Origin: Sabellastarte sp. h YS-2021 | Lineage: Eukaryota; Annelida; Polychaeta; Sabellida; Sabellidae | Assembly (NCBI GenBank): GCA_964017235.1 | Contig: OZ024929.1 | Coordinates: 29,137,464 to 29,201,463 of the forward strand | Reading direction: 5' to 3' | DNA length: 64,000 nucleotides | In this document: one piece after another, positions 28,497 to 51,764 of the stretch | How positions within the stretch are numbered: the stretch's first letter is position 1 | How the letters are laid out: every line of letters starts with the position of its first letter | The notes under the pieces: model-generated | Told to the model about the DNA's origin: nothing | Databases searched by the model: none | The model's input: only the letters and a program-made list of their open reading frames with translations | Position numbers and translations under genes: made by a program

Positions 28497-28557
28497 TTTA
28501 ATACCACAAACATCCCAAAAGTTTACAAAACCAAATACTGGGGCTAGGGTGGGAGGG

Positions 28558-29423: not shown

Positions 29424-29499
29424 AAAGCCCAACCGTAGTGAGACATTTATACCTATATTCAACATTTATAACCGTAGCCAGTGAATTGGCTAGCTCCTC

Positions 29500-30414: not shown

Positions 30415-30599
30415 CAGCTGAGTACCTACAACAAAGTATAGTATCTATCAGCACAATGACTGTAATAACATGGGCCCCTGCAAGGGAGATATGCATTAAC
30501 TCATTAATTCGTGACATGAACCCTACACAAGGTGACCACAAATACGCATCTAAACCTATATACATTGTAGCCTTAATACAGCCAGGGAACGTCAGGAAA

Positions 30600-32863
30600 G
30601 TTAGAGGTCAGGATGAAATGCCAGCATTTGCTCGTTTGCTTGTAACCAGCATGGATTTGGGATGTGTTGGAGTAGACGACCCCAGTCCGCCCGGCTACCC
30701 GACCACCTAGACAAAAGGTCAGCCACTTCATTGTCGCGCCCCCCTGATGTGTACATAGTCGACATCTATATCATGCTTGGCTGAGCAATACCAGATATTC
30801 CGAGTGCAAGCGGAAAGGAATGGATCTCTGGAGCGACCACTACTGAGCACAGAGACAACTGCCTTGTTGTCACATCTAACTAACACTTTGCGACCCGCCC
30901 AATAACTACAAAACAGTCTGAGGGCTAATAATATGTTTACCATCTCTAGATGGACAATTGTACATTCTTTATAGCCATGTTGCAATGGAAGGAAATACAC
31001 CAGATTTCCAAATCTACCCCCCAGCCCTGTGAGGCATGCATCGAGGTCAAGAACATGATCTATAGTTCTATGATCATAAAAGTTGATGCCATTGTAGGTT
31101 GGCAGAAATTTGGCAAACCAGCGAACATCACGTCGAAAATCTGACGTAAGGGTTATTTTTTGAGCATTTTGGCTGGATCTCAACATGTCCAGCATCCTGT
31201 TGAGAAAAACTCTAGCCGGCTTAACGCACTTATGGACATATAACAGAAGTCCCAAAATGGACTGCAACTGCCTCTTGGTACATGAATGCTTTTCAAGCCA
31301 TTCCTTGACTGTGTCATTGATCTGACGCAATTTTTCTGGGGGTATAGCAATTGTACCAGCCACAGTGTCTATAAGGACACCCAAGCAGACTACTCTAGTG
31401 GCTGGAGGGACCAACTTGCTTTTACTGACAGACAGACCTAGTTTTTCCATTAAAGACAATAGATGGTCAAAAGAACGTTGCGCGACGCTCGTGACGCCCA
31501 CCCCAATGTAATCATCTATGTAATCAATGATAGAGAAGCCAGCTTGACGCATCAGATGACGCACAGCGTCGCTTATACGCTGAAAAATTTGGCTTCCGTG
31601 CCGTGTCCCGAACGGCAGGCAGGTGTCCACGTATGTCCCACCCCATTCAAGGCCTAAGAGGTCATAGTCCCCAGGGTCCACCTTCACATGTCTGAATGCT
31701 CGGCTAACATCCACCTTGTACAAGAGGGCCCCCCTGCCCAGGCGTTTTACCTCATTTGTGATGTCATCAACCGAGGGGAAAGTAAGGTCAAATTGACTTT
31801 CCAAGTATGTATTCTTATTAATACCAGAATTGACTGATGGCCCCTGTGGCCAACTGAGGTCTATGATCACACGACGCCTATCAGAGTTTGGTTTGTGCCT
31901 GGTCATAAAAGGCAAACAATGCCCCCCTTCAATAGGATTTTGCTGAAAAGGACCCAGTATTGCATTAAACTCGGTTTCTTACTTGATATAGGCGTCAACA
32001 TCTGACGGGTGTTCAATAGCAGAAGAGTGATTTGTACCCTCACACCGTAGTGGACAATTTCTATTGAAATCCAAGGGGAATCCGAATTCTAATAATTGCA
32101 AGAGTTGTTGGTCCCAATAATTTGTCAGTCTGGACTTCCACTCAGATACGTTCAATTGTGACTTTACTGGAAGCCTGGCTTCCATGTAGTTAGGTTTGTT
32201 CGTGGCTCTAATGAGAGCATGGATGTTAAAAGGTGACAAGCCATCTGAACAGTTAACCACACTAGTGTCAGGCATAATTTGTTCATCCAGGGGAATAAAG
32301 CCAAACTGAAAGTCTGATTGATTTTGCCATTGTTTGAATAATGCACAATTATTTCGCTCTTGACACTTCACCCCTTGAATGCCAGCATTGTAAATGGCAC
32401 TAGTAAATTTATCTTCAATACCTGCCAGGTTTATATCATATACAGGACATGTTTGCAAGTTTAATTGGTGACTCGTATCGACAGACGACGCAGAAGCAGT
32501 GTTCACACAGACTCGACGCCTTGGACTACTTTCCTGACGCCCCCCTATCGATTTGTCAAGCACACCCTGTCTCTGGGGCAACAAATTGTTTGTATCTTCA
32601 GGTATGGAAACAACAGTACTATCAACAGTAACTACAGTACCTTGATCACTTTTAGTTGTGGCAGAGGAGGATTTGTTCTTTGATGCAAAAATTCTGGATT
32701 TGACCAACGTTTTTCCAGTCAGAGGTTTGAACCTCTTGCCTTTACAGGCTAGACTCGCCTCTACCACTGCTTTGCTGACTTTAGAGTTATATATGACTCT
32801 ACTTTTGTAAAATTTGTCACCATTTGAACCACCCATCATGCCATAACTTTGATTTTTGACCAT
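30600..32863 (-). pseudogene. Ngaro reverse transcriptase-RNase H (in-frame TAA and one frameshift)
   Basis: Opens at 32863. The N-terminal part (to FPLDFNRNCPLRC) is a linker. An in-frame TAA at 31979-31981 precedes the RT core in the same frame: RVIIDLSWPQG, YKVDVSRAFRHV (first catalytic Asp), LPFGTRHGSQIFQ and IDYIDDYIG (Y-x-D-D box). RNase H follows with LDLDACLTGLGGRF, VHLEMVNILLAL and VRCDNKAVV. At 30739-30744 a run of six G in - strand sense throws the frame. One base fewer would continue into DNEVADLLSRW, the usual RNase H ending of YR elements. The lesions are two small changes. Confidence 0.9.
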
Positions 32864-32964
32864 TTCATGACTATCAGTACAAGCAAATCTACCACACTTT
32901 GTGATGTTTCTACTGGGAGACTTTGTTGTAGTATTATCCTGATTTTTGGTACAGCTGCCCAGCC

Positions 32965-34050
32965 CTAGTGACTGGCAGCCCCTAGCTCGTTTTTTGAGCT
33001 ACCTTTTTTATGTATACAATCTTTTTCTGCATGTTGCAGTTGTTTTCCCATAGAAAGACAAAAAGCACAAATGTGACGGTGTAGCTTACCATTAGTTTCA
33101 TGGTCTTTACCTGAAGCACACATACCAGTCTGAAAGTTTTTACAAAACCAGGGTTTTCTGGTTTGTTCCCCAGTTTTTTGCCAACTTGTTTTGCTCGAAC
33201 CCACGTGCTTCTGAGCATAAGCTCTACGTATACGGTCTATTCTACTTTGATCTTCCCATGTGGTCTTGCCACGCTCCATCTCGCAGAGCAAGACAGCATG
33301 AGCTGCCTTGGCTCCCTGCCACGAGAAATCTGTGGCGTCTTCCATTAACTCCCCCATATAAGCCACCATCACATTTCTACGTTTTGTTGAGGGTTCATCT
33401 AAAATATTTTGACAGAAACCATGGACCCATTGGGTCAGGGACAATTGGTCATAATTTACCCTTTGTCTGCTAATACCACCTAGAATTGGTTCATGACGCT
33501 ATGCTACTTTTGCTTTGACAGAAACTTCTACATTACCTCCACGTTTTGATTTTTGTTTACATGCATCCCTACCTGAACACTGTGAACTATGCTCTAGTTC
33601 CCTGATTCTTCTGTCAACCTTTCTTTGCAATTGGGGAGACCTTAACACCTCTAGACTGGGAGAATCACTATCAGAGGACGAATCACTTGATATTTGTACT
33701 TTTCTTTTACATTTCTTGACAGTAGAATTAACACTAGGTGTACTAAACTTTGAATTACTTAACTCAAGGGAGTCCTGTGTGTGATCAGCAGCTGCCACCT
33801 TGCCCTCCACTTTGTCCAATCTTTTGTTGACTTTCTCCAGCTGTTCCAGGATTTTCCACTGCAACTGCTGTCCGTCAGGCAGCCCTTCACCTGCTTGGGT
33901 TACGGCAGCATCTCGTACAAGTCCATTGGTATTTACTGGTTCCTCTTCCACAGCTAGCTTGCAGTTTCTTCCAGTGGGTGGGACATGTCTGGTCTCGCAT
34001 TTTTTACAGAATTTTTTGTTAACATTCGGCATTTTTGTAACACTGGCCAC
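32965..34050 (-). pseudogene. Ngaro gag-like protein with CCCH-type finger (in-frame TAG)
   Basis: Opens at 34050 with a Cys pair near the N-terminus (FCKKCETRHVPPTGRNC), then a coiled-coil-like stretch (LEKVNKRLDKVEGKV) and basic/Ser-rich sequence. A TAG at 33499-33501 interrupts. The same frame continues to 32965 with WQGAKAAHAVLLCEMERG and a finger WFCKNFQTGMC, HRHICAFCLSMGK, typical of gag-like proteins of YR retrotransposons. It would package or chaperone element RNA. Confidence 0.85.
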
Positions 34051-34416
34051 CTAGTGGCAATCAAGTCAATGTTTAGGTACTGGAAATATAAATAAGCTCG
34101 AGATTCAGTGCTCTACCAGGTCGATAACAGGCTGAGAATTCTGGCTAGAAGGCTAAATGAAGGCTTGCGCAGAAAAATATAGGTTAGACCGTCCCTCAGA
34201 GTCCAAAAGACTGAGCCTGTTGCCAACACGATGACCACAAAATCTCTCCAATCAGTTTAAGTTCAGCCTCAAACACAAGAGTTCCATGTCACAATACAAT
34301 GATAGTGTCCATTTCAATCTCCATAAAACATTACAACTAAATGACCGTCTTCCATTTTATGTACACTATCTTACAACTTAAGACTTAAAACAAACTAAAA
34401 AACAATAGAATCAAAT

Positions 34417-34697
34417 AAAGTAAAATATTTTTTCCATGTCTCTCGTTTGGTTGACAAATTCAAAGTGAGGAACCTAGAAATCCAAACTACAGACTTCTAG
34501 GAAAGGAGCCAATTACATCATTTTGTTTGTCTGTTACCCCTAGCAACTGAGTAAAGTACACCACAGTACAATCAAGGTTCTTGTGATGTCATTTTGTACA
34601 CCTTTAGACTGGTGCCCAAACTTGCCTGTTAAGGTAGGACAAAAACTAACCCTGCCTTGGAGGACTGACTCCTGATGCGCCTGTACGCCCCAAGTGA
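34417..34697 (-). repeat. Ngaro split repeat A1 (5' end of the element)
   Basis: Left terminal repeat in element orientation, followed by about 370 bases of leader (34416-34051) before the first gag-like ATG. The leader has no open frame. Confidence 0.93.
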
Positions 34698-35620
34698 AAC
34701 ACTAATTTAAATCCTTTTTTCAAAGGATTTGAAAGAATTTCTATTCCTTTTGTTAAAAAAGGATGTGGTTTTGGAATTGGATTTAAATCATTTTTTTTTG
34801 CTCAAAATCCTTTTCAGACATCCAAATACTTTTTATGATTATTGACAATTGTTTTCAATTTATTTTTTTCTTCATACCTCCATTATCACAGTTTAAAAGG
34901 TGTAGAATAACTCCCTTTTCTGGACAATATGCTCTGACAGTTTATATCTGTGAAAGTCTTTATTTATTTATTTGGGGTTTTACGTCGCTTTCAACACTGT
35001 ACAGGTCATATCACGACGGGTAGTTGGAAGGGCAGAGGTAACCAGTACATACAGTTTGTTGGGGTTCTGTAATGTAAACTGCCGACTAACAGCAAGCAAC
35101 TACCAGCTTTCCCACTTGAGGCGGTGCCGGGAACTTAACCCCAGCCTCAGAGGTGGGAGGCAAGAGTGGTACCACTCTGCCACCATGGCCCCTTGAAAGT
35201 CTTAAACAAGACTAATAAAGAAAAATATCTCAAAAATAGCACCCACATAAATGAACAACAATGCAGCTATATTTTGACTTACCGGTAATCATATTCCTTC
35301 TAAAATTTTATGTTTTCTTCTCAGAGCAAGCATCCCACAGTTCATACTTTACTTCAGAAAGATACAAAGTACAGTTCTGATATACTAGTATCAGTGCTAA
35401 ATAAAGCTTGTACCTCCTTGTCAGTATAGTCTAAATGTATGTAAGACATGAAAAAAGTTATAAACTGGAAAAGGATTTGTATTTAAAACCTTTTGAAAAG
35501 GAGAGGATTTGGATTTGAAAAATTTCAAAGGATTTTGATTTGAATCTGAATCCTTTCAAAAGGATTTGACCTCAACCCTGATCTCTTTCATCTGACTTTC
35601 TTTTTTTCCAAATATTCAAT
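34698..35620. other. Degenerate AAGGATTT-type low-complexity sequence around a SINE
   Basis: Words such as AAATCCTTTT and AAGGATTTG recur at 34705-34815 and 35465-35575. The S1 SINE lies between. The same words occur at 26600-26660 to the left of the Ngaro element, so one low-complexity block may have been split by insertions. Confidence 0.45.
34961..35193 (-). mobile_element. tRNA-derived SINE, family S1, copy 3
   Basis: On the - strand it starts GGGGCCATGGTGGCAGAGTG and ends GCGACGTAAAACCCCAAATA with an (AAAT)n tail. The 10-bp duplication TGAAAGTCTT flanks it at 34951-34960 and 35194-35203. The body is highly similar to copy 1. Confidence 0.92.
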
Positions 35621-35883
35621 ATTATGAACTCATTTCAGCTCCCCAAGATTTCCTCATGCACTTCTACACCAATATAAATCTCTATAATATAATAGGTAAT
35701 AACACCAACATTTACATAGGACAAAATTGATAAAGATTCTTCAATGCACTGAAATCCAAAAAAAGGACAGTCCAAAACCAGGCGGAGATTATAAACCCAG
35801 TTAGTACCTGCCAGGGATGATGGTGGTGGGTTTGCCAAACCTGGAAACTGGAGATGGTCTGATGGGATCTGACACTGGAAGCC

Positions 35884-36133
35884 TAATACTGCTTGATTTT
35901 GATTAAAGATGGCAAGTAGCGCCACTGCGAGAAATCAACAACCTTTAAAGTAAGGTGATTATATTTACAAAGGATACAATTTAAAAGGGGAAGCCAGTGG
36001 AGTTTGTCTAGATATGGTGTAACATGACTCATTTTGTCCAGTCTATAAACAGTGCGGTAAAGAGCATTCTGAACTTTAGCAACACTGGTTGTGTTGAGCC
36101 CACATAGTTGAGACTTACAGTAACCTAATCAAT
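35884..36133 (-). pseudogene. Non-LTR retrotransposon (LINE) RT C-terminal relic
   Basis: On the - strand: GYCKSQLCGLNTTSVAKVQN, then ALYRTVYRLDKMSHVTPYLD and KLHWLPLLNCI. This matches the well-known segment after the RT thumb of CR1/jockey-like LINEs (Y-C-N-S-L-L-x-G-L ... L-Q-x-V-Q-N-x-x-x-R ... H-x-T-P-x-L-x-x-L-H-W-L-P). The remainder of the LINE is not recognisable on either side. Confidence 0.8.
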
Positions 36134-36204
36134 TACTGACCATAGCATTTGTCACCAAAAAGTGTAGCGTCAACACTTAGAAACTTACAAATGCTTCGCA
36201 AATC

Positions 36205-36305
36205 CCTTATGGGGGTGTTCCACGGGAATTGGAGACCAAAATCCAGAAAAAAGTGCGCAAAAATTTTGGGTCTGTTTCATCTCGACAGGACGTGGTACTT
36301 TCTGG
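36205..36305. repeat. End fragment of TIR family 1 (third copy, truncated)
   Basis: TTATGGGGGTGTTCCACGGG, then GACCAAAATCCAGAAAAAAG and TCTCGACAGGACGTGG, matches the inverted right ends of copies A and B. Only one end is present, and it borders the old DIRS relic. Confidence 0.6.
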
Positions 36306-36310
36306 TTTGT

Positions 36311-37054
36311 TTAGATCTACCTCCCAATCTGACTTGGGATCGCGATCCTTTTCTCCACGACTAGATGGAAACTACCAGGAAAAGCCGTAAACAAATGAGC
36401 CGTATCAAGCCCAGACAAGATGTACTGACAAACCAGCAGGACTGGAGCATTTTCCCGACCCACTCCGACTGGACTGGCAACAGCCACCACCCAGGAGAAG
36501 AAAGCCACCAAACTCCTGGGTCATGCCCTGGACACTTCAAAGGCAAGAAAAAGGATGCCACAGCAACCTCCTGGCCGACTTAATACAGACTGACATCCCA
36601 GGCTACCGGAATTTGTCAGGATACCACCTGCCTTTTTTTACCTCATCGAAGAACACATACACCACTGCATCAAGAAATCAGCCACCAATTTCAGGAAGCC
36701 CTTAGAAGTTGGATTGAAACTGGCAATAATGCCAAGACACCTGGCAACAGGAGTAACCTTGCAGTATGACTGCCTGGTTGGCCGAACCACCACCATAAAT
36801 TCATCCCCCAGGTCTGCTGAGCCATCCTTGCTGAATTCCAGGAAGAGTACTTGTCCTTTTTTTGACCCAAGTCTTTTTTTTAAAGTTTTTATCCAAAATA
36901 TTTCAATTTCAAGTTCAATATCTTTTAAGTCAAGGTTAAAAAAAATTTTTTTTAACGTCAATATTTCCTCGATGTAAAAATAAGCATCGCTAAAGTCCCA
37001 ATTGAAGGGAGAGTCTTATAGTCTCTGGTGATTTCATCTTGAAGGTTTCTGTCT
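36311..37054 (-). pseudogene. Old DIRS relic: reverse transcriptase, second part
   Basis: Read on the - strand from 37054: TFKMKSPETIR continues the RT frame that breaks off at 40004, matching FKMETPESIRASL of the younger DIRS. Further on, after stops and shifts, CKVTPVARCLGIIASF and LKLVADFLMQWCMC occupy the place of the L-P-F-G-L-x-x-A-P-x-x-F-T region, and pieces near 36560-36330 follow the thumb. The catalytic DD box is lost. The copy is much more decayed than the younger element. Confidence 0.75.
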
Positions 37055-40003
37055 TAATGCTGGTGTTCCACTGGAGCCGACCTGTCAGTAACTAAGCATT
37101 TTTTGGAAGGTCAGGAACAATGTTTACATAGTCGGTTAGGGTCAATTGTAGTTTCCAGGCCTGTCGGGGAGAGTTGGCAAAATATCAAACATGTTTGATA
37201 TTCCCCGACCCTCCCCGACTTTTGTTCCCGACCTAGGCTCCGCCCTCTGGCAACAGGCTTGTCCTAGTCACTTCACGCCTTGTCTTATTACTTCCAGGCT
37301 TGTCTGTAACCCTTCCAGGCTTGTCCTTTACTTGTTGTCAGCTTGACTTTTGCAACTTAAGTACTGCTCATTTGCAGTCCATCTGCAGCATGATGTGAGG
37401 TGAAAATATGACAAAAAAATTATGTCAGGAATGACAAAATAGCATCAGAGATGCCCGTACCCCACAGCCTGGGGAAATAATTTTCAACACCATGACATAT
37501 AGAAGTAGTGAAACAGTATAAAGGCCAGAATACTTTCAGCGCAGTGTCACTTATATAAAGGTCCAAATAATGTTTAAGTAGAGAAAATAACATCTAAGAG
37601 AAAGAAAATGTATGTAAAGATAAAGTACTAAACAAGACAATTCAATAGCAAGATGACAGCATTAATCAGTAACCTAAAAATATGAAGCTGTAAAATTTAT
37701 TAATTGGAGAATAACTGTCAATGGAAATAGCATAATTATGTAAAAGTGCATATAATAATCAGTTGCAGCAATCCATATGTCCTTGTCATAAGAGAAAGAT
37801 GTCTTAAATATGGCAGCTGAACACACTTTGGTCACACCATGAAGTACACATACATTTACATACACCCCTAACCAATGCCCCTACCAAGTGTCAACCTTCT
37901 ACATCTTATGGAATCCAAGATAAAGCCTGGACAAGAATTTAAAGGTCAAGGTCACTACAGCGTGGTGAAAGGTCAAATCAAGGTCACACCATGACGTTGC
38001 ACACCTACAATCCCCCACCAATATCCCTGTCAAATATCAACTTTCTGCACCTTACAGTTTCTGAGATATCGCCAGGACAAGATTGTATAGGTCAAGGTCA
38101 CTGCAGCAAGGTCATAGGTCAAATCTAGGTCACACCATGACGAGGCATACCTACACCCCCTAACTAATGTCCCTACCAAGTATCAACTTCCTACACCTTA
38201 CGGTTTCCAAGATATAACCTGGACAAGATTTTATAGGTCAAGGTCACTATGGCAAGGTCAAAGGTCAAATCAAGGTCACACCAAGACGTTGCACACCTAC
38301 ACCCCCTAACCAATGTCCTTACCAAGTATCAACTTCCTACACCTTACGGATTCCAAGATATAGCCCGGACAAGATTTTATAGGTCAAGGTCACTACGGCA
38401 AGGTAAAAGGCCATATCAAGGTCATACTATGACGCTGCACACCTACAACCCCTAACTAATGTTCCTACCAAGTATCAACTTCCTACACCTCACGGTTTCA
38501 GAGATATAGCCAGAACAAGATTTTATAGGTCAAGGTCACCACAGCCAGGTCAAAGGTCAAATCAAGGTCACACCATGACGTTGCACACCTACACCCCCTA
38601 ACCAATGTCCCTACCAAGTATCAACTTCCTACACCTTACAGTTTCCGAGATATAGCCCGGACAAAATTTTATAGGTCAAGGTCACTACGGCAAGGTCAAA
38701 TCAAGGTCAGACCATGACGTCGCACACCTACACCCCCTAACCAATGTCCCTACCAAGTATCAACTTCCTACACCTTACGGTTTCTGAGATATAGCTCGGA
38801 CAAGATTTTCAAACTCAAGGTCACTACGGCAAGGTCAAATCAAGGTCAGACCATGACATTGCACACCTACACCTCCTAACCAATGTCTCTACCAAGTATT
38901 AACTTCCTACACCTTAAGGTTTCTGAGATACAGCCCGGACAAACTTTTACCCACCGCCCACCCACCCACCATGGGTGAAAACAATACCCCGACAGCCCAA
39001 AATAAAAAACCAGTGCAAGTGATTATAATTTTGAAGTTAAGAGATAGCAAAGGTCCACATTTATGCTTTAAATAATTGAGAAACCTTAAAAAGTGGTTTA
39101 TTTAGTCACATAATAAACAAATTCTCGGCATATTTCACCAGAGCAATTAAAAAAAAAGGTTAAACTATTTGGATCCAATCGCAAGATATTTCTTCTCACT
39201 GTAAAAACCCATAAGCAATTTTTGGGAAAAAAGAGGATCAAGTGTCGACCAATCAACAAATCAGAAAACTAGGTCAATAGTAGATGTTTGGATCCCATCA
39301 TGTGACTCTTACTACAGCAGGATCTTTCCCAAAAGCTCGAAATTGGAGTATAAAAGGCAGCAACAAGCAAGAGGGTTTCATTGTCACATAAGATATTGTT
39401 AGAAGCACATCTCTCTCTGCTTCTTTCCACAGGATATAACATTTTTAATGACAATTTTATATTTAACATGACTTTTTCGTTCATAAATTGAAGCAGACAT
39501 ACATTGATTTTATTTCTTATATAATATTAAAGCAAAAACCTGAAAACTATAATTAAAATAACAAAACAGTAAAGTAGAACATTTAGGTCACATTATGGGA
39601 TCCAAATATTCAGCCTTGACCTAGTTTCAGATTTGTTTATTGGTCGACACTTGATCCTCTTTTTCCCCAAAATAGTGTAATGACAATACCGACTGCAAGT
39701 CTGGGGTTCTGTATGTTTCTCCAGTCCTGTCTGTCAGTATGGCTTGTCGGGACCTGCTTCAGTTTGTCTGTTCAGGGCTTGTCCTGGTCATTTCCAGACC
39801 AGTCCTGTAGAAAACATCCTGACCTCAAGGCAGGACAGCCTCTAGATACAGACAAGCCTGGATGTATCAAGTCCCGTCGGGGAGGTGAAACCGACCCAGA
39901 TTTTTCCCGCCCTTTTTTGTGGATTTGTGTCCCCGACTTTTGCAGCCAACCCTAGAGTCGTAGGGTCGGCTGTAGGGTCGGCTCCAGTGGAACACCAGCA
40001 TTA
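37055..40003. mobile_element. TIR DNA transposon, family 1 copy B, inserted in the old DIRS RT
   Basis: The ends are TAATGCTGGTGTTCCACTGG (37055) and its complement at 39984-40003; the inverted repeat extends about 27 bp (GGAGCCGAC). Inner blocks match copy A on both sides. No transposase is encoded. TA next to each end is a candidate 2-bp target duplication. On both sides the same RT domain of an old DIRS is interrupted. A second insert (37443-39008) splits the element internally, relative to copy A. Confidence 0.85.
37443..39008. repeat. AGGTCA-rich tandem-core element, long copy (about 145-bp unit, 7-8 copies)
   Basis: Units contain CACCATGACGTTGCACACCT, ACCAAGTATCAACTTCCTAC, GAGATATAGCCCGGACAAGA, then TATAGGTCAAGGTCACTACG and CAAGGTCAAAGGTCAAATCA. 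Starts lie near 37986, 38134, 38278, 38425, 38570, 38709 and 38847. It is absent from copy A at the equivalent point, so it is an insertion in copy B. The short copy at 4384-5262 shares its leader (TAGAGAAAATAA) and tail (GGGTGAAA, GACAGCCC). Confidence 0.85.
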
Positions 40004-40571
40004 GATACAAGTGCAAGGTGCACAGATCCAAGATAGGCCTCCACTTGTTTGGTTTTGGAACTAGAAAGAACCTGTTGTAGGTTAGAGAAGATTGAACCAT
40101 AACCTGGTCTACTGCCTATTTCTCTAATACGGAATGCAAACCTCAAGCAGTGGTTCTTGATGGGATTTGCATATCTGCTTATGATCAGAGGTGACCTTGT
40201 CAGAGGGGGGCTCATCTTGAAGGGTAGATTGCAACCCTCCTTCAAGATGTAGTCTACCTGTGGATTTGCACCCAGAGACTGCCAGACTTAAAACATTTCT
40301 GCAGTCTGCCTCCACATGCTCTTTTGCAGCACTGTAGACACTGGGAGGATAAAGGGACACAAAGAAAATGATAGACAGAGGAAAGACCTTTAGATATTAT
40401 ATTTTGTTCTTGTAAACTTCGGGCTTCATAAATTTCTGTTGAGGATGCCCTATTAAATTTACACAAAGAACAGGAGTTATAACATTTGGAAATGATAAAT
40501 AAACTGGTGAGTCTTGGTTGCAATTGTCCAACATTGTGACTTCATAAGCTTGGACCAATGCAGTAATTGTC
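40004..40571 (-). pseudogene. Old DIRS relic: pre-RT and start of reverse transcriptase
   Basis: On the - strand: ILKEGCNLPFKMSPPLTRSP, then ISRYANPIKNH correspond to YKLPFRERPNLS and ITSGYAGSDRQ of the younger DIRS. Further down NRFFLVPKPNKWRPILDLCT is the RT entry motif (R-L-F-L-V-P-K-P ... W-R-P-V-I-D-L). At 40004 the domain is cut by TIR element B and resumes at 37054. At 40571 the relic is cut by the younger DIRS. Confidence 0.82.
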
Positions 40572-40832
40572 ATTTTATTACGCTACAATAGTCCTACCTA
40601 TTGTAACAATATGCTTTACTGGTGGTTGACCACGGGAAGCTTCCAACCGGAGTAAAAGTTGAAAACTTATTACCCGTGAAATTCAGATAGACCGGGCTAT
40701 CCGGAACACTGGTTACGGGGAATGCCGGTGATATAGTACCGGTGCGGGTATACACACACCTGCTGGCTTGGCCACATGACCTAGGGAACCTATCAGATGC
40801 TCGATAGAGCTCTTCCTCATTTTTTGTTGGAA
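40572..40832. repeat. DIRS left inverted terminal repeat
   Basis: From ATTTTATTACGCTACAATAG to TTTTTGTTGGAA. It is complementary to 47243-47528 with scattered substitutions (for example GGGTATACACACACC against GCGTATACCCACACC). The outermost 45 bases recur inverted at 47083-47121. Confidence 0.93.
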
Positions 40833-40959
40833 GCCATCTTATCAAGTTGGCTTTCTTGTAGCTCTCACTTTGGTGAATTGTTACAGCTATTTTACTGTGG
40901 GTATACAGTATATTTTTGTGTCAGTTGTTTTATAACACTGTATAGACACTTCTGGTAAG

Positions 40960-43224
40960 ATGGTTAAGACTCCCCCTTACCAAAAACGGGGCAAATGTGG
41001 ACATTTCATGCCCCAGTTTGACTCTCATGGTTCTTGCTTTGGCTGTAGAGCCAAGTGTAAAGGTCAAGACCCTTGTGCACAAGGGGCTAATGTAAACCAG
41101 TGTGCTCCATGTGCAGCCTTATCTGAGGAACAGTGGACTCACCTCAGGGAGAATTTTGCAAAGAGGTCTGCTTATAGAAGCCGTACCGGATCACGAGACA
41201 ACTCATTTGAGGAGTTCGACACAGATGAACCGGTATTTACCGGCGAGGATCTCTCCCGGGTAGTCGACACTATTCTTGACCTGGAACCGGAACAATCCGG
41301 CACAAGTGCACCAGTGACCGGCATTAGTGCTCTGACGAGCCTCCCAGCTCCTCTGCCCGGATCATCACAAGATATTCCTGCAACCTCTGGTATTTTCGGC
41401 TCCGGACCGGTTATTTCACCCCAGGGTGAATCTTCAGCCTTTTTCAAGGCGCCGGCCCCTATGCCACAGACGGTTACGCAAGATGTTCTTCCTCCATCAT
41501 ATCCACACAGTCAAGGAGGACAATCCGTGGCGGACAGGATGGCATCTCTATCCTTTCCACAACCTCAGAGGACTTCATCTTTAATCCCTCAAACCCCAAG
41601 GACTCAAATGATTCAGAGCCACTTGGAGCAACAAAACTTTGAGCTCATGAAGGATCTTCAACAGAAAAATCAAGAGCAAATGAGGGACATTTCTGCTCAA
41701 TTACAAACTGGACTCAAGGCTTTCCTCAAGCAGTCTATGGAGCAAATGTTTACACGCATGGCGCCTCCACAAACAGCTCCTCCTCCACAAGCATCATCCG
41801 CACCGCACATTGTATCCATTACTCCGGTGTCTGCTTTGCCGCAAGCCGCAAAGATGGAAGAACCTGAACCTGACTCTGCTCCATCTCAACCACCCCCTGA
41901 AGTGAAGAAGGGCTTATTAAGGGTAAAAGGTTATTCAGCCATCACGGTGCCCACTGCTGCCTCTTCCTCTCAACCTATGCAACAACCTTCAGTTGCTCCA
42001 CCTCCAAGGCTTCAATCACCTCTTCAAGCCCTGGAACAAGAGGAATACGGCATGGACACCTCTGCTTCTTCTTTCGCGGCCTCCAGATCAGAAGAACCAT
42101 CTGACACAGGGGAACAGGCGGCCCCTCCTAACCTTCCCTTCAGAGAACTGGTCCAGAAGGTTAGAGAGTTCCTTTCCATTCCCGACCCAGCAGCAGAAGA
42201 GGATTACAAACTGGGTTCGGCACTGGGACGCGATCCACTCTTGTTACAACAAGAAAAGGCGGATAGACCACCATCCATAAAGCTTCCTATGGTGGCAGAT
42301 CTCTCGCGTCTCCAAAGCGCCCAAGATGACTTGGTTAAACCCAGCACATCAAGCACTTTGGATATTGGAAAGTTCCCCGGCATTCCACCACACAAAGGCA
42401 GCTGGTATAGCGTAGTGGATGCAAAATACTCGCAGACCCCACAAGTGGTGCCCCAGGCTTTCTCAAATATAGCGAAGCCTGGCTACAGAAGTGGACCCCC
42501 AGCTACAGTACAACAAAAGGACCTTGTAAAGCTGGAATATCTCTCATGGGAGAACATTAGCATAGCCAACTTCCTGTCAACTTTCGGTGTGGCTAGCGAA
42601 TCCTGTCTGAACAACCTGTGACTCACCCGAGACCAGAGGGAGCGTTTGTTCGACCAATTCCGTGCTAGCACGGAGGGGCCCACCAGGAAGCAAATTATGC
42701 AACAAATGTTCAGCATAACCCAGCAAGAAGCATCCCAGATGCAGTTTATGTTGGATATTAGCAGGAGCATGTCCAAGGCCTATGCGGACTTAGTAGCCAA
42801 CTTCAACTCATCCCTGACCAACCTAGTTCTGATCAGGAGGGACGCCTACCTCAGGCATGCACACCCCAACCTGGATGCATTCAGATTATGCAATCTTTGC
42901 TCTGCTCCAGTCTCAGGGGGTGACCTCTTTGACAGATCGCTCATGCAAGAGTACGAGCAACAACTTATTGGTCTGGGAGTGAAGACAGGCACCAAGAAGG
43001 AGCGTTTCCACCCCTATAAGAAAAAGAGGGGCAGAGGTGGAAATCAGCGTCATCACGCTCCCCAGGGTATGTTCTACCCAACCATGCCGGCACCCCAGTA
43101 CATGGTGCAACAGCCCTTTTACCCCCACCCTCAAGGGGGCCGCAGAGGAGGTCGAGGTGGCCGCAGAGGTCGCGGCCGTGGAGGCAACACGTCTAACACT
43201 AAGCAGCAGCAACACCCTCAATGA
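40960..43224 (+). pseudogene. DIRS gag-like protein (one in-frame TGA)
   Basis: The ATG at 40960 opens MVKTPPYQKRGKCGHF, followed by a Cys-rich N-terminus (CFGCRAKC, CAQG, CAPC), a Pro/Gln/Ser-rich middle and a conserved C-terminal part (LVLIRRDAYLRHAHPN). The C-terminus is a basic RGG-like tail (RRGGRGGRRGRGRGG), likely RNA-binding. A single TGA at 42619-42621 interrupts; the same frame continues at once (LTRDQRERLFDQFR) to the stop at 43222-43224. Without the TGA the protein would have 754 residues. The homologous part in the old relic has no stop at that place that I can identify. Confidence 0.88.
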
Positions 43225-43340
43225 CACTCAAACAAATGTGTTAGCCTCATCTCACCCTGGTCAAAAAGGAATAATATTTTCAGAAACTCTCTTGGATTAT
43301 TTCTACCCACACACCCCTCCAGAGGGGGAAAAGACTCTGA

Positions 43341-43520
43341 GTGTACAGTCCCTTCAGGAGAGGGCAAAGACTCCTTGTGTATAGTCCCTTCAGGAGAGGG
43401 CAAAGACTCCTTGTGTACAGTCCCTTCAGGAGAGGGCAAAGACTCCTTGTGTACAGTCCCTTCAGGAGAGGGCAAAGACTCCTTGTGTATAGTCCCTTCA
43501 GGAGAGGGAAAAGACTCAAA
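43341..43520 (+). repeat. 36-bp coding minisatellite, 5 copies
   Basis: The unit starts GTGTACAGTCCCTTCAGGAG and continues AGGGCAAAGACTCCTT, repeated at 43341, 43377, 43413, 43449 and 43485. In the RT frame each unit adds twelve residues (VPSGEGKDSLCT or CI). It lies at the N-terminus of the RT frame, before conserved sequence. Confidence 0.95.
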
Positions 43521-45558
43521 ATCAGTCATACCAGTGGGAGGCAGACTCAGGCGTTTTCTTACCCAGTGGGAACATCAAGGGGCCCACCGGTCTATGCTCA
43601 GTCTACTCAGGGACGGTTACAAACTACCTTTCAGAGAACGCCCAAACCTGTCCAGGGTGCCCTGCATCACCAGTGGTTATGCAGGCTCCGACAGACAAAG
43701 TGCCTTATTGACCTCTATTCAAGACCTGCTGCACAAAGGCGCTATCGAAGTCGTGCACACTCAAAACAGTCTAGGATTCTACAGTCGGCTGTTCCTGGTC
43801 CCAAAACCAGGCAATCGCTGGAGGCCAGTTATAGACTTAAGTTCACTAAACAAGTTCCTGGTCATACCAAAGTTCAAGATGGAGACCCCAGAATCGATAC
43901 GGGCCTCCCTCAGGAAAGGAGAATGGGTTACCTCTATAGATCTCACGGACGCATACCTACATGTACCTATCCATACCCACTCTCAAAAATATCTCAGATT
44001 CCACCACAAAGGCGTCACCTACCAGTTTGTCAGTCTACCCTTTGGTCTGGCTACAGCTCCTCTAGTTTTTACCAGCCTTGTGAAGGAGGTAAAACTACTG
44101 GCACTACAAGGAATCAGACTACACCAATATTTAGACGACTGGTTAATCCGTGCCCCCTCCAAGGAGGAGTGCCACTCACAAACACAAGCACTACTCAGTC
44201 TGTTGAAGGACTTCGGCTTTGTAGTAAACCTCAGGAAGTCAGAACTCCGTCCCTCGAAGAGGTTCGACTTCCTAGGATACCATTTTTTACTGGACTTGGC
44301 TCTTGTGAGGCCCACGCAAGACAGATGGACAAAACTTCAGGAAATGTTTCATCGCCTCTCAAAGAAGTCTGTTATCAGTGCAAGGACTCTTATGTCCACC
44401 ATTGGATTGCTTGCATCAACAGAGAAGACTGTAAAATTGGGCAGGATGCATATGAGACCTTTTCAGTGGCATCTCAAGAATCACTGGAAATATCCGATGC
44501 CTCTGGACACACCAGTCCCCTGGAATCAGAAAATGATACAACACGGGGAATGGTGGTTAGACCATCAAAATGTGCTACAAGGAGAATTTCTCCATCCCAG
44601 GGAACACGAAAAACTAATATTTACAGACGCCTCAAACGCAGGTTGGGGCGCTCACTCAGGTCAAGACTCTACAGGAGGTCTCTGGTCTCATCTAGAAAAG
44701 CATCTACACATCAACCTATTAGAAATGAAGGCGGTTTTTCTGGCACTACAATTTTTCAAAAAGACTTGTCAAAACAATCAAGTCCTCATCGCCTCAGACA
44801 ACACCTCATTGGTGGCATACATCAACAAACAGGGCGGCACTCGATCAGCAGAACTTTGTGCCCTAATGTGGAGAATCCTAACATGGTGCAATCAGAACAA
44901 TGTGACACTCCGAGCACGACACATCCCGGGATCACTCAACGTAATAGCGGACGGCCTCTCCAGGAGGAACCAGATCCAATCAACAGAATGGTCCCTCTCT
45001 CCACAAATCTTCAAACAAATTTCCAAACTTTGGGAGAGTCCCCAAGTGGACCTATTCGCAACCAGCCTGAACACAAAACTCCCTCTCTACGTCTCCCCAA
45101 TTCCAGACCCTCAGGCATGGGCTGTGGATGCCCTGAACATTCCATGGGAAAACCTGGTTGCGTACGCTTTCCCTCCCACCGCCCTGCTGCCCAAGGTTGT
45201 ACAAAAACTCCAATCCCAGATCTGCAGGATAATTCTCATCGCCCCAGGTTGGCCAACAAAATCATGGTTTTGGGATCTAGTGGAGATGTCTCTGGACATA
45301 CCAAGAGAACTACCACCCACTCGCACTCTGCTCAAACAGCCACTGAACAACCAATACCATGCAAACCCAGCCTCCCTCAATCTCCATGTGTGGTATCTAG
45401 GAGTTCACCCCTCAAAGAACGCGGGTTCACTGCAGAAGTGGCAGAAAGAATTGCTGCTCCTCAAAGACTCTCAACGAGAGCCATCTACTCCTCAAAATGG
45501 ACAGTTTTTCAAAAATGGTGCAAAGAGGAACAGGTGGACTTCAGGAATCCATCTATAA
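43375..45558 (+). CDS. DIRS reverse transcriptase / RNase H / methyltransferase-like protein (intact frame)
   Basis: 727 codons without a stop. After the repeats and a pre-RT segment come YSRLFLVPKPGNRWRPVIDL (about residue 135), TSIDLTDAYLHVPIH (first catalytic Asp), LPFGLATAPLVF and HQYLDDWLIRA (Y-L-D-D box). RNase H shows IFTDASNAGWGAH (residues about 415-430), LLEMKAVFLAL, ASDNTSLVAYINKQGGTRSA and ARHIPGSLNVIADGLSRR. The C-terminal part (VDLFATSLNTKLPLYVSP, IIIAPxWP-type IILIAPGWPTKSWF) is the DIRS methyltransferase-like region. The true start may lie upstream; the first ATG falls within the repeats. The 3' end overlaps the recombinase frame. Confidence 0.94.
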   Translation: MCIVPSGEGKDSLCTVPSGEGKDSLCTVPSGEGKDSLCIVPSGEGKDSKSVIPVGGRLRRFLTQWEHQGAHRSMLSLLRDGYKLPFRERPNLSRVPCITSGYAGSDRQSALLTSIQDLLHKGAIEVVHTQNSLGFYSRLFLVPKPGNRWRPVIDLSSLNKFLVIPKFKMETPESIRASLRKGEWVTSIDLTDAYLHVPIHTHSQKYLRFHHKGVTYQFVSLPFGLATAPLVFTSLVKEVKLLALQGIRLHQYLDDWLIRAPSKEECHSQTQALLSLLKDFGFVVNLRKSELRPSKRFDFLGYHFLLDLALVRPTQDRWTKLQEMFHRLSKKSVISARTLMSTIGLLASTEKTVKLGRMHMRPFQWHLKNHWKYPMPLDTPVPWNQKMIQHGEWWLDHQNVLQGEFLHPREHEKLIFTDASNAGWGAHSGQDSTGGLWSHLEKHLHINLLEMKAVFLALQFFKKTCQNNQVLIASDNTSLVAYINKQGGTRSAELCALMWRILTWCNQNNVTLRARHIPGSLNVIADGLSRRNQIQSTEWSLSPQIFKQISKLWESPQVDLFATSLNTKLPLYVSPIPDPQAWAVDALNIPWENLVAYAFPPTALLPKVVQKLQSQICRIILIAPGWPTKSWFWDLVEMSLDIPRELPPTRTLLKQPLNNQYHANPASLNLHVWYLGVHPSKNAGSLQKWQKELLLLKDSQREPSTPQNGQFFKNGAKRNRWTSGIHL

Positions 45559-46373
45559 GTGACATATGCAACTTCTTCTGGTACCTTTTCAATGTGCTGA
45601 ACCGTTACCCTTCCACAATCGAAGGTTACAGAACAGCTATCGCAGACACCTTAGGTAATACAAAACAAAACATTAGCAACAACGTGGACATTGCCAGACT
45701 CATTGCCAGTTTCTATAGGGACAAACCTAAGAGTTCCAGGAACTTTCCGAAGTGGAATTTATCTATCGTCCTACACACATTATTTCAGCCTCCTTTTGAA
45801 CCACAGGAGCAAGCTGACCTCAAATTCCTTACTTGGAAAGTAGTCTTCCTCCTAGCCCTAGCTTCAGGAAAAAGACGCAGTGAAATTCACGCCTGGACTC
45901 TTGATGGACTTTTATGCCTGGGCGATTGGGAACAGGTCCAACTGGTACCCTCTCCCTCGTTCATTGCCAAAAATCAATTAGCAAAGGACGGACCGCAATC
46001 AATTTCTCCAGTAGTAATTCCCACCTTGAAGTACAACCAAGACTCCAAGGACACGGATATCCTCCTCTGCCCTATCAGGGCCCTCAGGTGTTACCTGGAC
46101 AGAACCAGAGACGTAAGAGGGAATAGACAATTGTTGTTTATCTCTTTTAAACAGGGCCACACTAAGGATATTCAGGGCTCCACCATTTCATCTTGGATTA
46201 AAAACACCATAAAATTCTGTTACTCCAAGGTAGACAATGCAGACATGGACTTATTAGGGGTAAAAGCCCATGATGTCAGAGCGTTTGCGGCCTCCAAGGC
46301 CTTTTACGGAGGGGTCTCCATCGATCAGATTATGCAAGCCTGCCATTGGAAATCACACAACACTAGGTTCTAA
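45351..46373 (+). pseudogene. DIRS tyrosine recombinase, stops just before the catalytic tyrosine
   Basis: It lies in another frame from the RT, overlapping its last 200 bases. FTAEVAERIAAPQRLSTRAI starts the core-binding half. The catalytic half has LLALASGKRRSEIHAWTLDG (Arg I), KAHDVRAFAASKAF (H-x-x-R) and QIMQACHWKSHNTRF followed by TAA at 46371-46373. Immediately downstream TTCACTAGGTTCTACCTCAA repeats CACTAGGTTCTA from 46362; the second copy, in another frame, holds F-Y-L, with the expected catalytic Tyr. A short tandem duplication therefore created the stop. The open frame extends upstream to 43341, but that part is a shadow of the RT. Confidence 0.88.
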
Positions 46374-47082
46374 ATCACTTCACTAGGTTCTACCTCAAGG
46401 ACCTAGCTGGACAAGATCAGACAGAAGGCTCCTACCACCTGGGCGCCTTCATCGCAGCACAGCAGGTGATGCCTCCTTCCACATCAGCTCCAAGGACAAA
46501 AAAAGGGGGGGGGGGACAAAACCGGGAACCGTGTAGATGGGGCGTGTCAGAACCCTGACACCATAGAGCGGACCTTCCACCCTGCTTCAGGTAACTAACT
46601 TAGCTTTATGTTTTTTGCTTTTTCGTACCGGCTGTATCACTTTCCTGCTTACCATTAAGTTACCAGGAGTAATTTTAATTTCCATTTTCTTATGAATTTA
46701 ACTTAAGTTATACTTTTCTGTATCTCTTAACCTTATTTTCCTAAGAATTTTCTTGTGTCGTATGAGTGTTCCTTAACACTTTTTTCATCGTACTTTGTGT
46801 ACTTTGTGTTTTCAGATTCTTTGCTGCTTGGAGTGCCTACACTGGCGGTGCCAGACCAAGACGGTGCTTTCTCCCCTTGGTCTCTCATCTCAACCACAGG
46901 AGAGCTGGAGAACTCCCCTCGGTCGTCGATGAGCTCCTACAATCTGGACTACATCGAGGCCTTCTTCCTCCACCCTGGTCTCCGAATGCTCGCCTAGATG
47001 GTTGTTGCTGCCTTTGCCAGAAAGACTTTTCTTTTATGCCAGTGCCAGTCTACCCAGTCATCCGAGTATGCTGGGATTCAGC
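46374..47082 (+). other. DIRS 3' region between recombinase and internal complementary region
   Basis: The first 130 bases are the cut-off recombinase tail (DLAGQDQTEG, GAFIAAQQ in a shifted frame). A G-run follows (46504-46514), then sequence with CTGGCGGTGCCAGACCAAGA. The two small open stretches there (46755-47101) overlap in different frames and look fortuitous. Confidence 0.6.
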
Positions 47083-47175
47083 ATATTGTTACAATAGGTA
47101 GGACTATTGTAGCATAATAAAATTGGAAATTTTATTTTAAATGTAGCTTTTATAAGCTACAATACCTACCTATTG
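47083..47175. repeat. DIRS internal complementary region
   Basis: GCATATTGTTACAATAGGTA, then GGACTATTGTAGCATAATAA is the complement of the left end. AAATTTTATTTTAAATGTAG and CTTTTATAAGCTACAATACC is the complement of the right end. Together they form the joint of the circularised element, as expected for DIRS. Confidence 0.92.
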
Positions 47176-47242
47176 TAACAATAGTACAGGCCCTCCCTGG
47201 TCCTCCCCGCTTGTCAGACTTTCCACTGGCTTGGGGGCTTGG

Positions 47243-47528
47243 TTCCAACAAAGTATGAGGAAGAGCTCTATCGAGCATCTGATAGGTTCCCTAGGTCATG
47301 TGGCCAAGCCAGCAGGTGCGCGTATACCCACACCGGTACTATATCACCGGCATTCCCCGTGACCAGTGTTCCGGATGGCCCCGGCTATCTGTATTTCACG
47401 GGTAATAAGTTTTCAACTTTTACTCCGGTTGGAAGCTTCCCATGGTCAACCACCAGTAAAGCATATTGTTACAATAGGTAGGTATTGTAGCTTATAAAAG
47501 CTACATTTAAAATAAAATTTCCAATTTA
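47243..47528. repeat. DIRS right inverted terminal repeat
   Basis: From TTCCAACAAAGTATGAGGAA to ATTTCCAATTT. The outer 60 bases (TTACAATAGGTAGGTATTGT, AGCTTATAAAAGCTACATTT) differ from the left end and are represented in the internal region, which lets both ends be defined. Confidence 0.9.
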
Positions 47529-48992
47529 TAAGGCTTATTAGACCGGGCCTGCATGGATTAATAGACTTGGTACCATTTCCCAGGTATCTGACTTTACACT
47601 TTGCAACAAACTCCCTTTAATGCTGCTGATCACCTGCAGATTGAGAACCTTGTTTGGGACCCTTCTTCTCATAAGGTTTGGATTGGTAATCTGATCTCAT
47701 AGAAGAGTACTGGGAGGCACCTGACCCAGGTCCTGGAGCACTAGAGGATGCATGATGCTTGTTGATTTTTTCTTCCACCTGTCACAGAGTAGCATCTGGG
47801 GACAAAAACTGACAAAACATATTTGCTGTACGCAGTTTGTTGAGAGTATCAGGTTGTACACCAGCATTGTGATGATCTAAATAAGAATCTCTTCTCATCA
47901 GTACCAGATTACCCCGGTGCAGAAAAAGGCTGTCAGCCAGCTGCTGGAGAGAAGTGCCTAAGGCAAGATAAATGGTGAAAATGGCTTTTAGGATCACATA
48001 GAGCTTCAGAGGCTTAGGCTGATGATTTCCTTTTACTAAGTTCACCGTGAAGTGTTATGCTTTCAAAGATACGACCTTGAACTTCAGTGGTGCATCCACT
48101 GAACCCAAGCCGCCAGGTTAACAATGTCAGAATCCTCTTTCTAGACTGAGAGTCTATATCAGAAGTTTGACCAGTGGAAACTAATGGTTCATAATCACAA
48201 ACTACAGATCTACCTTGTGTACCGGTGTGAACCAGTGAATGGTCGGTAGAGGAAGCTTTGGAAGCAGAAACCCACTGGGCAGTACCAGTTGAGTGAAGGG
48301 AGTCATCCTCGGGAGACCAGAACCAGTGGAGTGAGCTGGACCAGTCGGTGGAGCATGATTAGTTGTAGAAGTGCCCTTTCAAAACTGGGCCAGAATGGGA
48401 ACCCAGATCTGGCTTTGCTTTAGAACATTTTGAGTCTTTCTTATCATGCTTGTCTTTCTTGCGCTTAGTCTTCTTCCCTGATTTCTGGTCCTTAGGACCA
48501 GCCGGGAGCATCACCAAAACAGTGGCCAAAGCTGAATTAGGCTCCAAAAAGGGCTTATCAGAAAGTGGGAGCCTTTTAGCAGGAGATCCAGGTACCAGAA
48601 TCTTTGGCGTAGAGAATATATTGCTTCTAGTCAACAAAGCTTCAAAAAGGGGTAAACATTCTGCCCACTTGCCATCGGGATCTTTTGAGTCCATGACAGG
48701 CCTGTTATTGGATGGACCGGGCCGGGGGCTACCAGTATACAAAGTAATCTGCACAGACAACATATTTTCACTACCAGGGGGTTTCCTCCTGCTCTTCCTG
48801 TATTTGGGTAGCAACTAGCAAGCATATCATTTTGCCCCAAAGTAGTCACAAATCTGGCAGAGGTTTTCTTCTACACAAGCATCTTGCCCCATACCTTTTT
48901 CTCTATACCGTGCACACTTATCGTGGCAGTCAAAAGTGGCCATAATATCACAATATGACTGCAAGAACCCGTCATCTTCTATCCCTCAGATG
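47529..48992 (-). pseudogene. Old DIRS relic: gag-like region
   Basis: On the - strand the N-terminus near 48985-48835 has the Cys pattern (FDCHDKC, GQDACVEENLCQICDYF) seen in the younger gag. The middle is Lys-rich (GKKTKRKKDKHDKKDSK). At 47990-47820 LADSLFLHRGNLVLMRRDSY and LRTANMFCQFL correspond to LTNLVLIRRDAYLRH and LCNLCSAPV of the younger gag. Several stops and shifts occur. The relic breaks at 47529, where the younger DIRS enters, and continues at 40571 with the pre-RT part. Confidence 0.8.
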
Positions 48993-49420
48993 CTATGACA
49001 ATTCAGACCTTCTTTCGCAAAAAATCTTCATAAAATAACACTGTTTAACATGAAATAAAATTAAGTTTCTCTTAATTCCCAGCATTGCATAATGGCTATA
49101 TTATTGGAAATATGCTTTTAAAAATAAAACAATTTATTTACTCAGTATTTTGTAATTTTGCAGCGATCTAATTAAAACAACCAAACAAAGTAGCTGCTAT
49201 TTAATTCCTTTTAATTCCGAAACTACATCTGAGTATTGCTTTAGCATCTGCTAAGTCATGTGACCCCATTGGTATGGACTGGGATGTTGAACAATGCCAA
49301 AAAGTATAAACAAGATATAGAAGTTATTATTATTTAAATATGTTAAGATGAGGGGGCACTTGGTATGTACTTTCTCAATCAGGTAGATATAAGACAATAG
49401 AGTGCCTGGATATTTGGATA

Positions 49421-49422
<2 letters not shown>

Positions 49423-49470
<48 letters not shown>

Positions 49471-49477
49471 AAAAAAA
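49423..49477. repeat. Long poly-C / poly-A tract
   Basis: About 38 C followed by 17 A. Such a homopolymer joint is likely to be length-variable and prone to sequencing error. It lies between the DIRS nest and the CHD gene 3' end. Confidence 0.9.
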
Positions 49478-49479
49478 TC

Positions 49480-51764
49480 CTAGTAACAAGTATGTATGAA
49501 ATGAAAGAAAGTCTTTAAATGTAGTTTTTATTATGAAAAAGTGTCTTTGTATTTGATATAAAGGTCTATATAAATTCACAACACGTTACCACTTATATGT
49601 AACAGTACACATAATAAATATGACACTTTACAAATATACAACTTAGAAGTTGCAACCATTAATAAACACAGAAAAATACTTTTAAAGGCAGACCAATTGC
49701 CTATAATGCGATAATTATTTACAATATCTTCTATCTTAGAGATGCAAACTAAAAATACAGCTTTAAAGACAGGTTTGATATAAATAGTGATGAATTCTGG
49801 TTGAGTTGAAGGCATTTTACATCAAATTTCTCATTCCCAGTTTTGTAAATATCATGAACATAAACATGGTCAGCAAAATAAAATCAATCAAATTGTTTGA
49901 CCTTAGAGTCAGGAAACATGATCATTTGTTTTAATCATTCCAGTCACATGATCAACTCTCCGGAAAAAACAAAACAGTTTTTAATTAAGCTATCTCATAA
50001 TCTGGATTAACATGCATACTCGACCATTTTGCCTAAAATATAACTTGTCATAAACCAACATATTTTTTATTTCCGCAGAATTTCTCTTGTTTTGAGAATG
50101 TCTGACAATTCTGAAAATAAGAACACATACCACAAACCTGGGGCCTGTAAATAGAATCATTCATAAAACAACAAACACTTAATGACAATGTAACAGCACT
50201 TTTACTAAAGAATTCAGGGAGTAAATAGAAGCATTCTTTGAGTAGTCGTAAAACTGTCAGCATTCCGTACATTGTTATTACAGATTTCCTCCAGATCGTA
50301 AATGTGTATTCAAATGTCTCATTTACAACCACCTTACTGTACAACACTTCAATAACTTTGCTTTATATAACAATAACTTAAATTTAGTTAGATGTAAAGA
50401 GCTGAGGGTTTGCATAACTATAACTTAACAATAGGGTCCGAGTTGTCTTTAACTTTGAAGGGTTTTTACGAAAAAATTTAACAAACACTAAACTAAGATT
50501 TTGACTTACACAAGAGTTTACAAATGTAGAGTTATTTAAGAGCTAACAAATTTATAAGCAGAATGAAGGCTTTAACTTACAGGCCCCAGATTTGTCCCAG
50601 TTAACAAAGCAAGTTTTTAAAAAAAGTACAAGGGTATGTTTTCAACACATATTTTACCCTGATGCCAATAAAATGGCCGAAAAATTGGACTGGTAAATTC
50701 ATACTGTTTGAATGGTACCAATCCCAAGTATGCACAAGTTTGTACATTACTGTAAGTAGTACAAATATTGCAGACTGCACCTTTGAAATGCAATGAATAT
50801 CTTTGGTAAAAAAAATTCACTTCAAAAGTAAAAACAAACTTTAACGTTTTAACAACCACTAGCATGTATAAACAAATCTTGGATCTTTACAAACATGGTT
50901 GAGCGTTAAAATAGAAACTCTTACGGTATTGTTGATCAGTTATTTATCTCAACCACTGACCTCTCGATTAGTTTTAAATTCATTGGGATAACTACATTTA
51001 ATGCCCAATTTTTATTGCTTTTGACATCATTTCATTGAAACACAACTTGACAAACTAATTTATTCAGGAAAACTATTACTGGTGTGTAATTTGGAATGCA
51101 TGCCTTTGTCAGTCAAAAATACTAGAAATTCTGACAGAGAAACACCAATACAATTTGGAATCGACCGTTATTGTTGGTGCTGCCTAGTCACTAACCACCA
51201 CAGATAAACCATTTGTAGAGGTTACCTGGACAGACTCGGGTATACTTTGTTACCCTTAGTTCTAGTAATTTCAGTCTCACTCTTTTGACAGATGTTTTAC
51301 CGCAAAATAGAAAACATACCCAACACAGTCACAATGTGTTTGGCATTTGGAACATGGTCTCTCTGAAATTATCTGTGGATGTTTTCAGTTTACTTTGAAA
51401 AGAAGTCTTTTTCACAATTTCTTCTTTTTAAATAAGCTAATTAAGAAACCCTTAAAATAAAAGGATGCAAATTTACATCACAAAGCTTTTTCCATTCTGA
51501 ATTAGAATACACACCCTAATATCTGCACATGTTAGCAAAGTACAGCTATGGTTGGATATTAGACTGTCCATAAAATGAAGAATTTCGTACAACATCATCT
51601 GAAACCATAAATTTAGCAAATGAAAACCAGTCTGATAATCCTGAAGTCATGAAATTTAAAACCAGAAAGTTGGATAAAAGAGGATATTCCTGGATTTATA
51701 GTCTGTAGCACTTGTCTTTCTCCCATTCAGTTTTCCAATGTGCGTGTCAGTCGACGGTGATGAC
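49480..51764 (-). other. CHD4: Probable 3' UTR and flank of the CHD gene
   Basis: No coding feature is seen on either strand. In the - sense, AATAAA candidates occur near 49525 and 49612. The length of the UTR is not determined. Open stretches here are short and lack codon structure. Confidence 0.4.

Follow-up and report, generated by a model that had tools for sequence, protein, structure and literature searches.

DIRS1-like retroelements, as outlined in the excerpt of PMC3266345 used here, follow a plan with inverted terminal repeats (ITRs), overlapping internal complementary regions (ICRs), a 3-bp junction, and no target duplication on insertion; AcDIRS2 is tabulated in that excerpt with the start TTT and the junction AAA. 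TNA is the classic target pattern of Harbinger transposons, according to part of PMC12477816. HINE elements, which include the bivalve elements Pearl and Cg_HINE, are described in part of PMC7492417 as non-autonomous Helentrons with satellite-like arrays. Dating by nested transposons is established practice, represented by REANNOTATE (PMC2672092) and TinT (PMC3014933). We describe a locus of the annelid Sabellastarte sp. h YS-2021 where elements of these kinds lie inside one another. The analysed region, called the window, is a stretch of 64,000 nucleotides (positions 29137464-29201463 of contig OZ024929.1) in an assembly of 1.786 Gb and 647 contigs. It holds an old DIRS element interrupted by a Harbinger-type transposon (element B) and by a younger DIRS element; B in turn contains a core of tandem repeats with the marks of a Helentron. 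Paralogs and relatives of every element were taken from the same genome as the window.

For three insertions, namely B, the young DIRS, and the tandem core inside B, the nesting proves real and exact. What can be seen directly is where the exact joints lie, what the empty sites look like, how the target was changed, and which element sits in which. We hold the full account, with the old DIRS as target and B, the core in B, and the young DIRS as later insertions, at a probability of about 0.93. An earlier note on this DNA had described old-DIRS pieces separated by the young DIRS, with B at 37055-40003 and the core in B, and the empty sites of paralogs and B relatives confirm this nested reading. 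It had also put the number of insertions at five or more. Empty sites prove three, whereas a putative relic of a long interspersed nuclear element (LINE) and a piece of another Harbinger transposon are counted here as neighbours. No new mechanism appears at the locus, which is an ordinary, tidy case of genome layering, and the underlying biology is already established. What it offers is exact empty sites, at one locus, for three insertions via three different mechanisms (DIRS, Harbinger, and Helentron-type). It is useful for teaching and for checking repeat annotation; its left block looks like reverse transcriptase (RT) by eye, yet is Harbinger transposase on the opposite strand.

Empty sites in an old DIRS element

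The old DIRS lies on the - strand in three pieces: the gag side (47528-49086), the pre-RT region and the start of the RT (40004-40572), and the next part of the RT, which fades leftward (36996-37054). The window copy matches its paralogs at ~49086-47528, 40572-40004, and 37054-~36996. Three paralogs read at 8-9 kb (L039, L040, and L041) carry the gag side, RT, and RNase H in the same order, with frameshifts and stops. DNA matches to these three define the gag side; a gag-like peptide within it (48943-48848) is weak taken alone (E 0.086). The earlier note rightly recognised a gag piece but ended it too early, at 48992, since DNA homology to the paralogs reaches ~49086. The RT of the middle piece matches that of the young DIRS at E 2e-12. 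A genome search with 40004-40571 returned 41 rows, where the six best non-self matches are 74-75% identical and others reach 77%, and many of the paralog matches end at fragment edges. The short leftmost piece is 76-92% identical in DNA to old-DIRS paralogs over short stretches, with a weak protein match (E 0.019-0.5).

What the window preserves of the old DIRS is a fragment lacking both ends. The 5' end of the paralogs extends ~210 bp farther than 49086, and a search for this piece elsewhere in the window gave just stray matches of 20-25 bp. An inverted repeat of 41 bp, its arms ~4.2 kb apart, occurs in L039; it is absent from the window copy, and no such pair was seen in L040 or L041. Permissive-gap alignment of 36480-37002 and 49086-49700 to old-DIRS paralogs was uninformative when compared with shuffles. 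Close to the 5' truncation, 39 consecutive C fill 49422-49460, and a stretch of A comes next.

For each joint, the outer flanks were placed on 29 non-self old-DIRS loci cut out of the genome. At the B joint, exactly 3 bases lie between the flanks in 23 of the 29. In the window, B is flanked by TAA (37055-37057) and TTA (40001-40003), and the empty site reads TTA in L011 and L012. Because the empty sites hold 3 bp and the flanks of B are TAA and TTA, we conclude that B entered with a 3-bp target duplication. At the young-DIRS joint, five paralogs could be placed on both sides, and four of these have exactly 3 bases in between (ATT, ATT, ATA, and ATT); in L011 and L038, the sequence spanning the empty site is CATTTATAAGG. 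TTT stands at both ends of the young DIRS and once at the empty site, so this insertion took place without target duplication. Uninterrupted copies of the old DIRS, which the earlier note proposed to look for in the same genome, were found at both joints: the paralogs are continuous.

The inserted elements

The young DIRS1-like element runs from 40573 to 47527 on the + strand, delimited by TTT at 40573-40575 and 47525-47527 and by its empty sites; the earlier note had found a real element and placed it one base too wide on each side (40572-47528). Its left ITR (40573-40832) is 94.2% identical over 260 bp to 47499-47243 reversed and pairs with the right ITR (47243-47527). The ICRs occupy 47080-47183 and overlap at the circular junction: 47080-47123 is complementary to 40615-40572, and 47120-47183 to 47527-47464, with the overlap, AAAT, containing the 3-bp junction AAA. 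Three frames follow one another on the + strand. A gag-like frame (40936-43224) has an in-frame, apparently premature stop at 42619. The frame for RT and RNase H (43225-45558) matches RVT_1 at E 1.7e-22 and RT_RNaseH at E 1e-4, the latter with 22.8 bits, below the cut-off of 24.8. The third frame (45501-46373, with an in-frame stop at 46371) is presumed to be the tyrosine recombinase, by its expected position and a motif. The two stops show that the element is not intact. A methyltransferase was sought in 44700-45558, with no Pfam match.

Copies elsewhere in the genome agree on the edge. The first 1029 bases have 39 other matches among 40 scored, up to 97% identical, and 34 of the 39 begin at query base 1 or 2. 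All 20 left ends that were fetched read TTT, preceded by A in 11, C in 5, G in 2, and T in 2; these copies were picked because their match starts at the edge, and they show where the edge is, not how many full-length copies exist. ATT as the junction is ruled out, for the first base varies in the 20 copies while TTT is constant. On the right, eight predicted ends were inspected: in two (L104 and L107), unrelated DNA comes directly after TTT, and in the other six no full right end was found.

The young DIRS resembles the DIRS1-like elements in the excerpt of PMC3266345 in its ITRs, overlapping ICRs, 3-bp junction, lack of target duplication, RT, and RNase H, and it has the same start and junction as AcDIRS2. 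It differs in length (~7 kb, against 4.0-6.0 kb for the elements described there), in an array before the RT, in its two broken frames, and in that its recombinase and methyltransferase are without Pfam confirmation. The array, 36 bp repeated 5.7 times at 43315-43517, stands just before the RT and in open frame. The element entered the interval between gag and RT of the old DIRS at TTT. If a circular DIRS intermediate recombines with its target, no duplication is expected, as observed; the integrating enzyme would be a tyrosine recombinase.

Element B (37058-40000, + strand) is a non-autonomous Harbinger-type transposon with an insert, as judged from its empty site, its inverted ends, and the TNA pairs of its relatives. 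The ends are perfect inverted repeats of 28 bp, target bases included. With its left 382 bases as query, 39 of 40 scored loci are matches other than B itself, none of them more than 90% identical. Both ends could be read in 15 of 29 relatives (the other 14 were unreadable): the target pairs are identical TNA in eight, one base off in six, and unfitting in one. Autonomous relatives, L099 and L102, share a terminal region with B (69%) and with the related copy A in the window (70-74%), and L100, of the same Harbinger family as these two, has DDE_Tnp_4 at E 3.9e-23. In its 3-bp TNA target pairs, and in a terminal region common with a family that encodes DDE_Tnp_4, B is like PIF/Harbinger transposons; it is unlike them in being without a transposase and in carrying a foreign insert. 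We infer that a Harbinger transposase acted in trans to move this non-autonomous element, which entered the RT region of the old DIRS at TTA and duplicated these bases.

Other targets were considered for B. TA and TTAA are ruled out, as the paralogs show 3 bases, and the bases beside TNA in the relatives do not fit the Tc4-type target CTNAG, as given in part of PMC11071193. Within B, a foldback (39217-39306 with 39586-39672) is common to many relatives and belongs to the family; its presence there rules out a separate insert. The inner part of the foldback lies in the opposite orientation in copy A (1951-4371), which has other sequence inside (~2466-3793), part of it resembling 25030-25589 (69%). 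Copy A may hold an insertion of its own.

The tandem core inside B (37437-39004, + strand) is 1.56 kb long. Its array (37861-38949) consists of 7.6 repeats of 146 bp, and homology to core relatives extends over 37436-38998, the exact edges being ambiguous at an A-rich site. In 26 of 29 B relatives, the corresponding site holds 2-5 bases; two loci were unplaceable (L045 and L051), and L068 gave -3. None of the 29 relatives read was seen with the core at this site, and copy A lacks it too, as the earlier note had observed. Core-like repeats occur elsewhere in or beside five of the 29 (L047, L049, L062, L067, and L071). A genome search with B returned 110 rows, most of them due to the core.

The ends of core relatives carry the marks of Helentron-type (HINE) elements. 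In all seven readable right ends from 10 loci, a palindrome is present, TACCCCGACAGCCC-TTAA-GGGCTGTGGGGTA, with small variants. Several relatives have TACCCCACAGCC near the left end, which together with GGGCTGTGGGGTA at the right forms a subterminal inverted repeat, as seen by eye; a repeat search within the window copy found no subterminal inverted repeat. The window copy stops at 38998, after the first arm of the palindrome. The core is like HINE elements, as described in the excerpt of PMC7492417, in its short tandem array between two modules and, in its relatives, in the subterminal inverted repeat and 3' palindrome; it is unlike them in that the window copy is without the second palindrome arm, and its likeness to Pearl and Cg_HINE is one of described features. 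This Helentron-type element entered an A-rich spot of B, presumably by Helentron machinery. At L007, core elements adjoin head to tail on the core's left side: where one ends in its 3' palindrome, the 5' end of the next begins directly; such arrangements are a possible route to satellite arrays.

Order of events and competing accounts

The nesting dictates that the old DIRS came before B, B before the core, and the old DIRS before the young one, in support of the order given in the earlier note. This reasoning from interruptions is that of REANNOTATE and TinT, and differs from it in nothing of principle. Terminal branches were taken from FastTree trees, where n includes the window copy; the relatives were those with the best scores, and the rates could be unequal. 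They measure 0.142 for the old DIRS (n=11), 0.036 and 0.050 for the left and right parts of B (n=30 and n=15), 0.038 for the core (n=7), and 0.018 for the young DIRS (n=8). The observed/expected ratio of CpG agrees with the order of the branches: it is 0.26 (47527-49086) and 0.08 (40004-40571) in the old DIRS, 0.32 in the mostly Harbinger stretch 36520-37054, 0.38-0.44 in B and the core, and 0.45 in the young DIRS. The earlier note had left B and the young DIRS unordered. Branch lengths put the young DIRS later, and it was probably the last insertion.

Four other accounts deserve consideration. The one that survives best, though we consider it rather unlikely, is that the core was already inside the source copy of B and that the two arrived together. 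The similar branches of B and the core fit such a joint arrival; the core site is nonetheless empty in 26 of the 29 best-scoring B relatives (part of a large family), with the core in none. A second, less probable alternative is that B entered after the young DIRS or near the same time. Since B and the young DIRS are neighbours within the old DIRS, nesting gives no order between them, but the shorter branch of the young DIRS and its closer relatives (up to 97% identical, against at most 90% for B) speak for a later young DIRS. Third, a stretch of ~21 kb holds two DIRS elements and a third, Ngaro-like one, and the target of the young DIRS was itself a DIRS; that tyrosine-recombinase retroelements cluster here by preference, with DIRS integration favouring older DIRS copies, we regard as very improbable. 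Finally, and least likely, the flanks would come from different element copies, joined by deletion or assembly error and merely resembling one old element. This idea can draw on the foreign (Harbinger) block left of ~36996 and on a structure known from the assembly alone; for both joints it is refuted by paralogs that continue across them with precisely the bases that are predicted there, and the order of pieces is also preserved in the three paralogs read at 8-9 kb.

Several observations weigh against the account of an old DIRS successively entered by B, the core, and the young DIRS. The B joint measures 6 bases in L013 and -3 in L022, and four loci were not placed (L014, L019, L023, and L031). 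The young-DIRS joint is -9 in L015, and 24 of the 29 loci are without a placeable flank. A Pfam search of the young DIRS found no recombinase. The branch lengths derive from best-scoring relatives and few copies (eight for the young DIRS, seven for the core). The account does not cover the junctions at 36857-36996 and 49086.

Neighbouring elements

The block to the left of the old DIRS had been read in the earlier note as a continuation of the RT (37054-36311). This claim does not hold: the old DIRS is recognisable only at ~37058-36996, and the rest is mostly Harbinger, on the + strand. Translations of 36300-37015 were compared with RT and neighbouring proteins, and the best of 24 comparisons (z 2.6) is not clearly above shuffles. 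A DIRS RT in 36300-37003 beyond the first 60 bp was ruled out by these shuffles and then by the Harbinger family found there. A genome search with 36520-37000 gave 42 non-self rows; in 40 of these, at 83-85% identity, the match begins within the first three query bases and stops at 36840-36857, so that 36477-36857 is a high-copy Harbinger sequence. Four copies were read, and all match from 36477/36493 to 36843/36857 at 84-86%. L099 and L102 also carry the upstream terminal region of A and B (69-74%), and 36225-36476 belongs to the same Harbinger family. On the + strand, the block corresponds to the N-terminal half of the copies' transposase, with 60-79% in the pieces that match and E values as low as 1.9e-33; the window pieces themselves have no Pfam match. 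Given these copy matches, the shared terminal region, the transposase homology, and the DDE_Tnp_4 of L100, we identify 36210-36857 (+ strand) as what remains, on the 5' side, of an autonomous Harbinger transposon: it comprises the terminal inverted repeat and the transposase's N-terminal half and breaks off at ~36857. It belongs to the same superfamily as B. Just before it, TTA (36207-36209) may represent a target copy.

Farther left, 35883-36128 (- strand) is a putative LINE relic, by resemblance; a Pfam search of this piece found no match. ARAGORN found no tRNA in the 64-kb window. A dispersed repeat of ~230 bp (34959-35193, 4587-4813, and 13812-14038) looks like a tRNA-derived short interspersed nuclear element by its box motifs. 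The third tyrosine-recombinase-type retroelement (27901-34697, - strand), provisionally labelled Ngaro-like, has an RT (RVT_1 at E 7.9e-11) and a weak recombinase-like frame (29563-30444, E 0.055). Its direct repeats are split: 34417-34697 pairs with 28558-28839 (97.5%), and 28840-29423 with 27901-28496 (97.3%).

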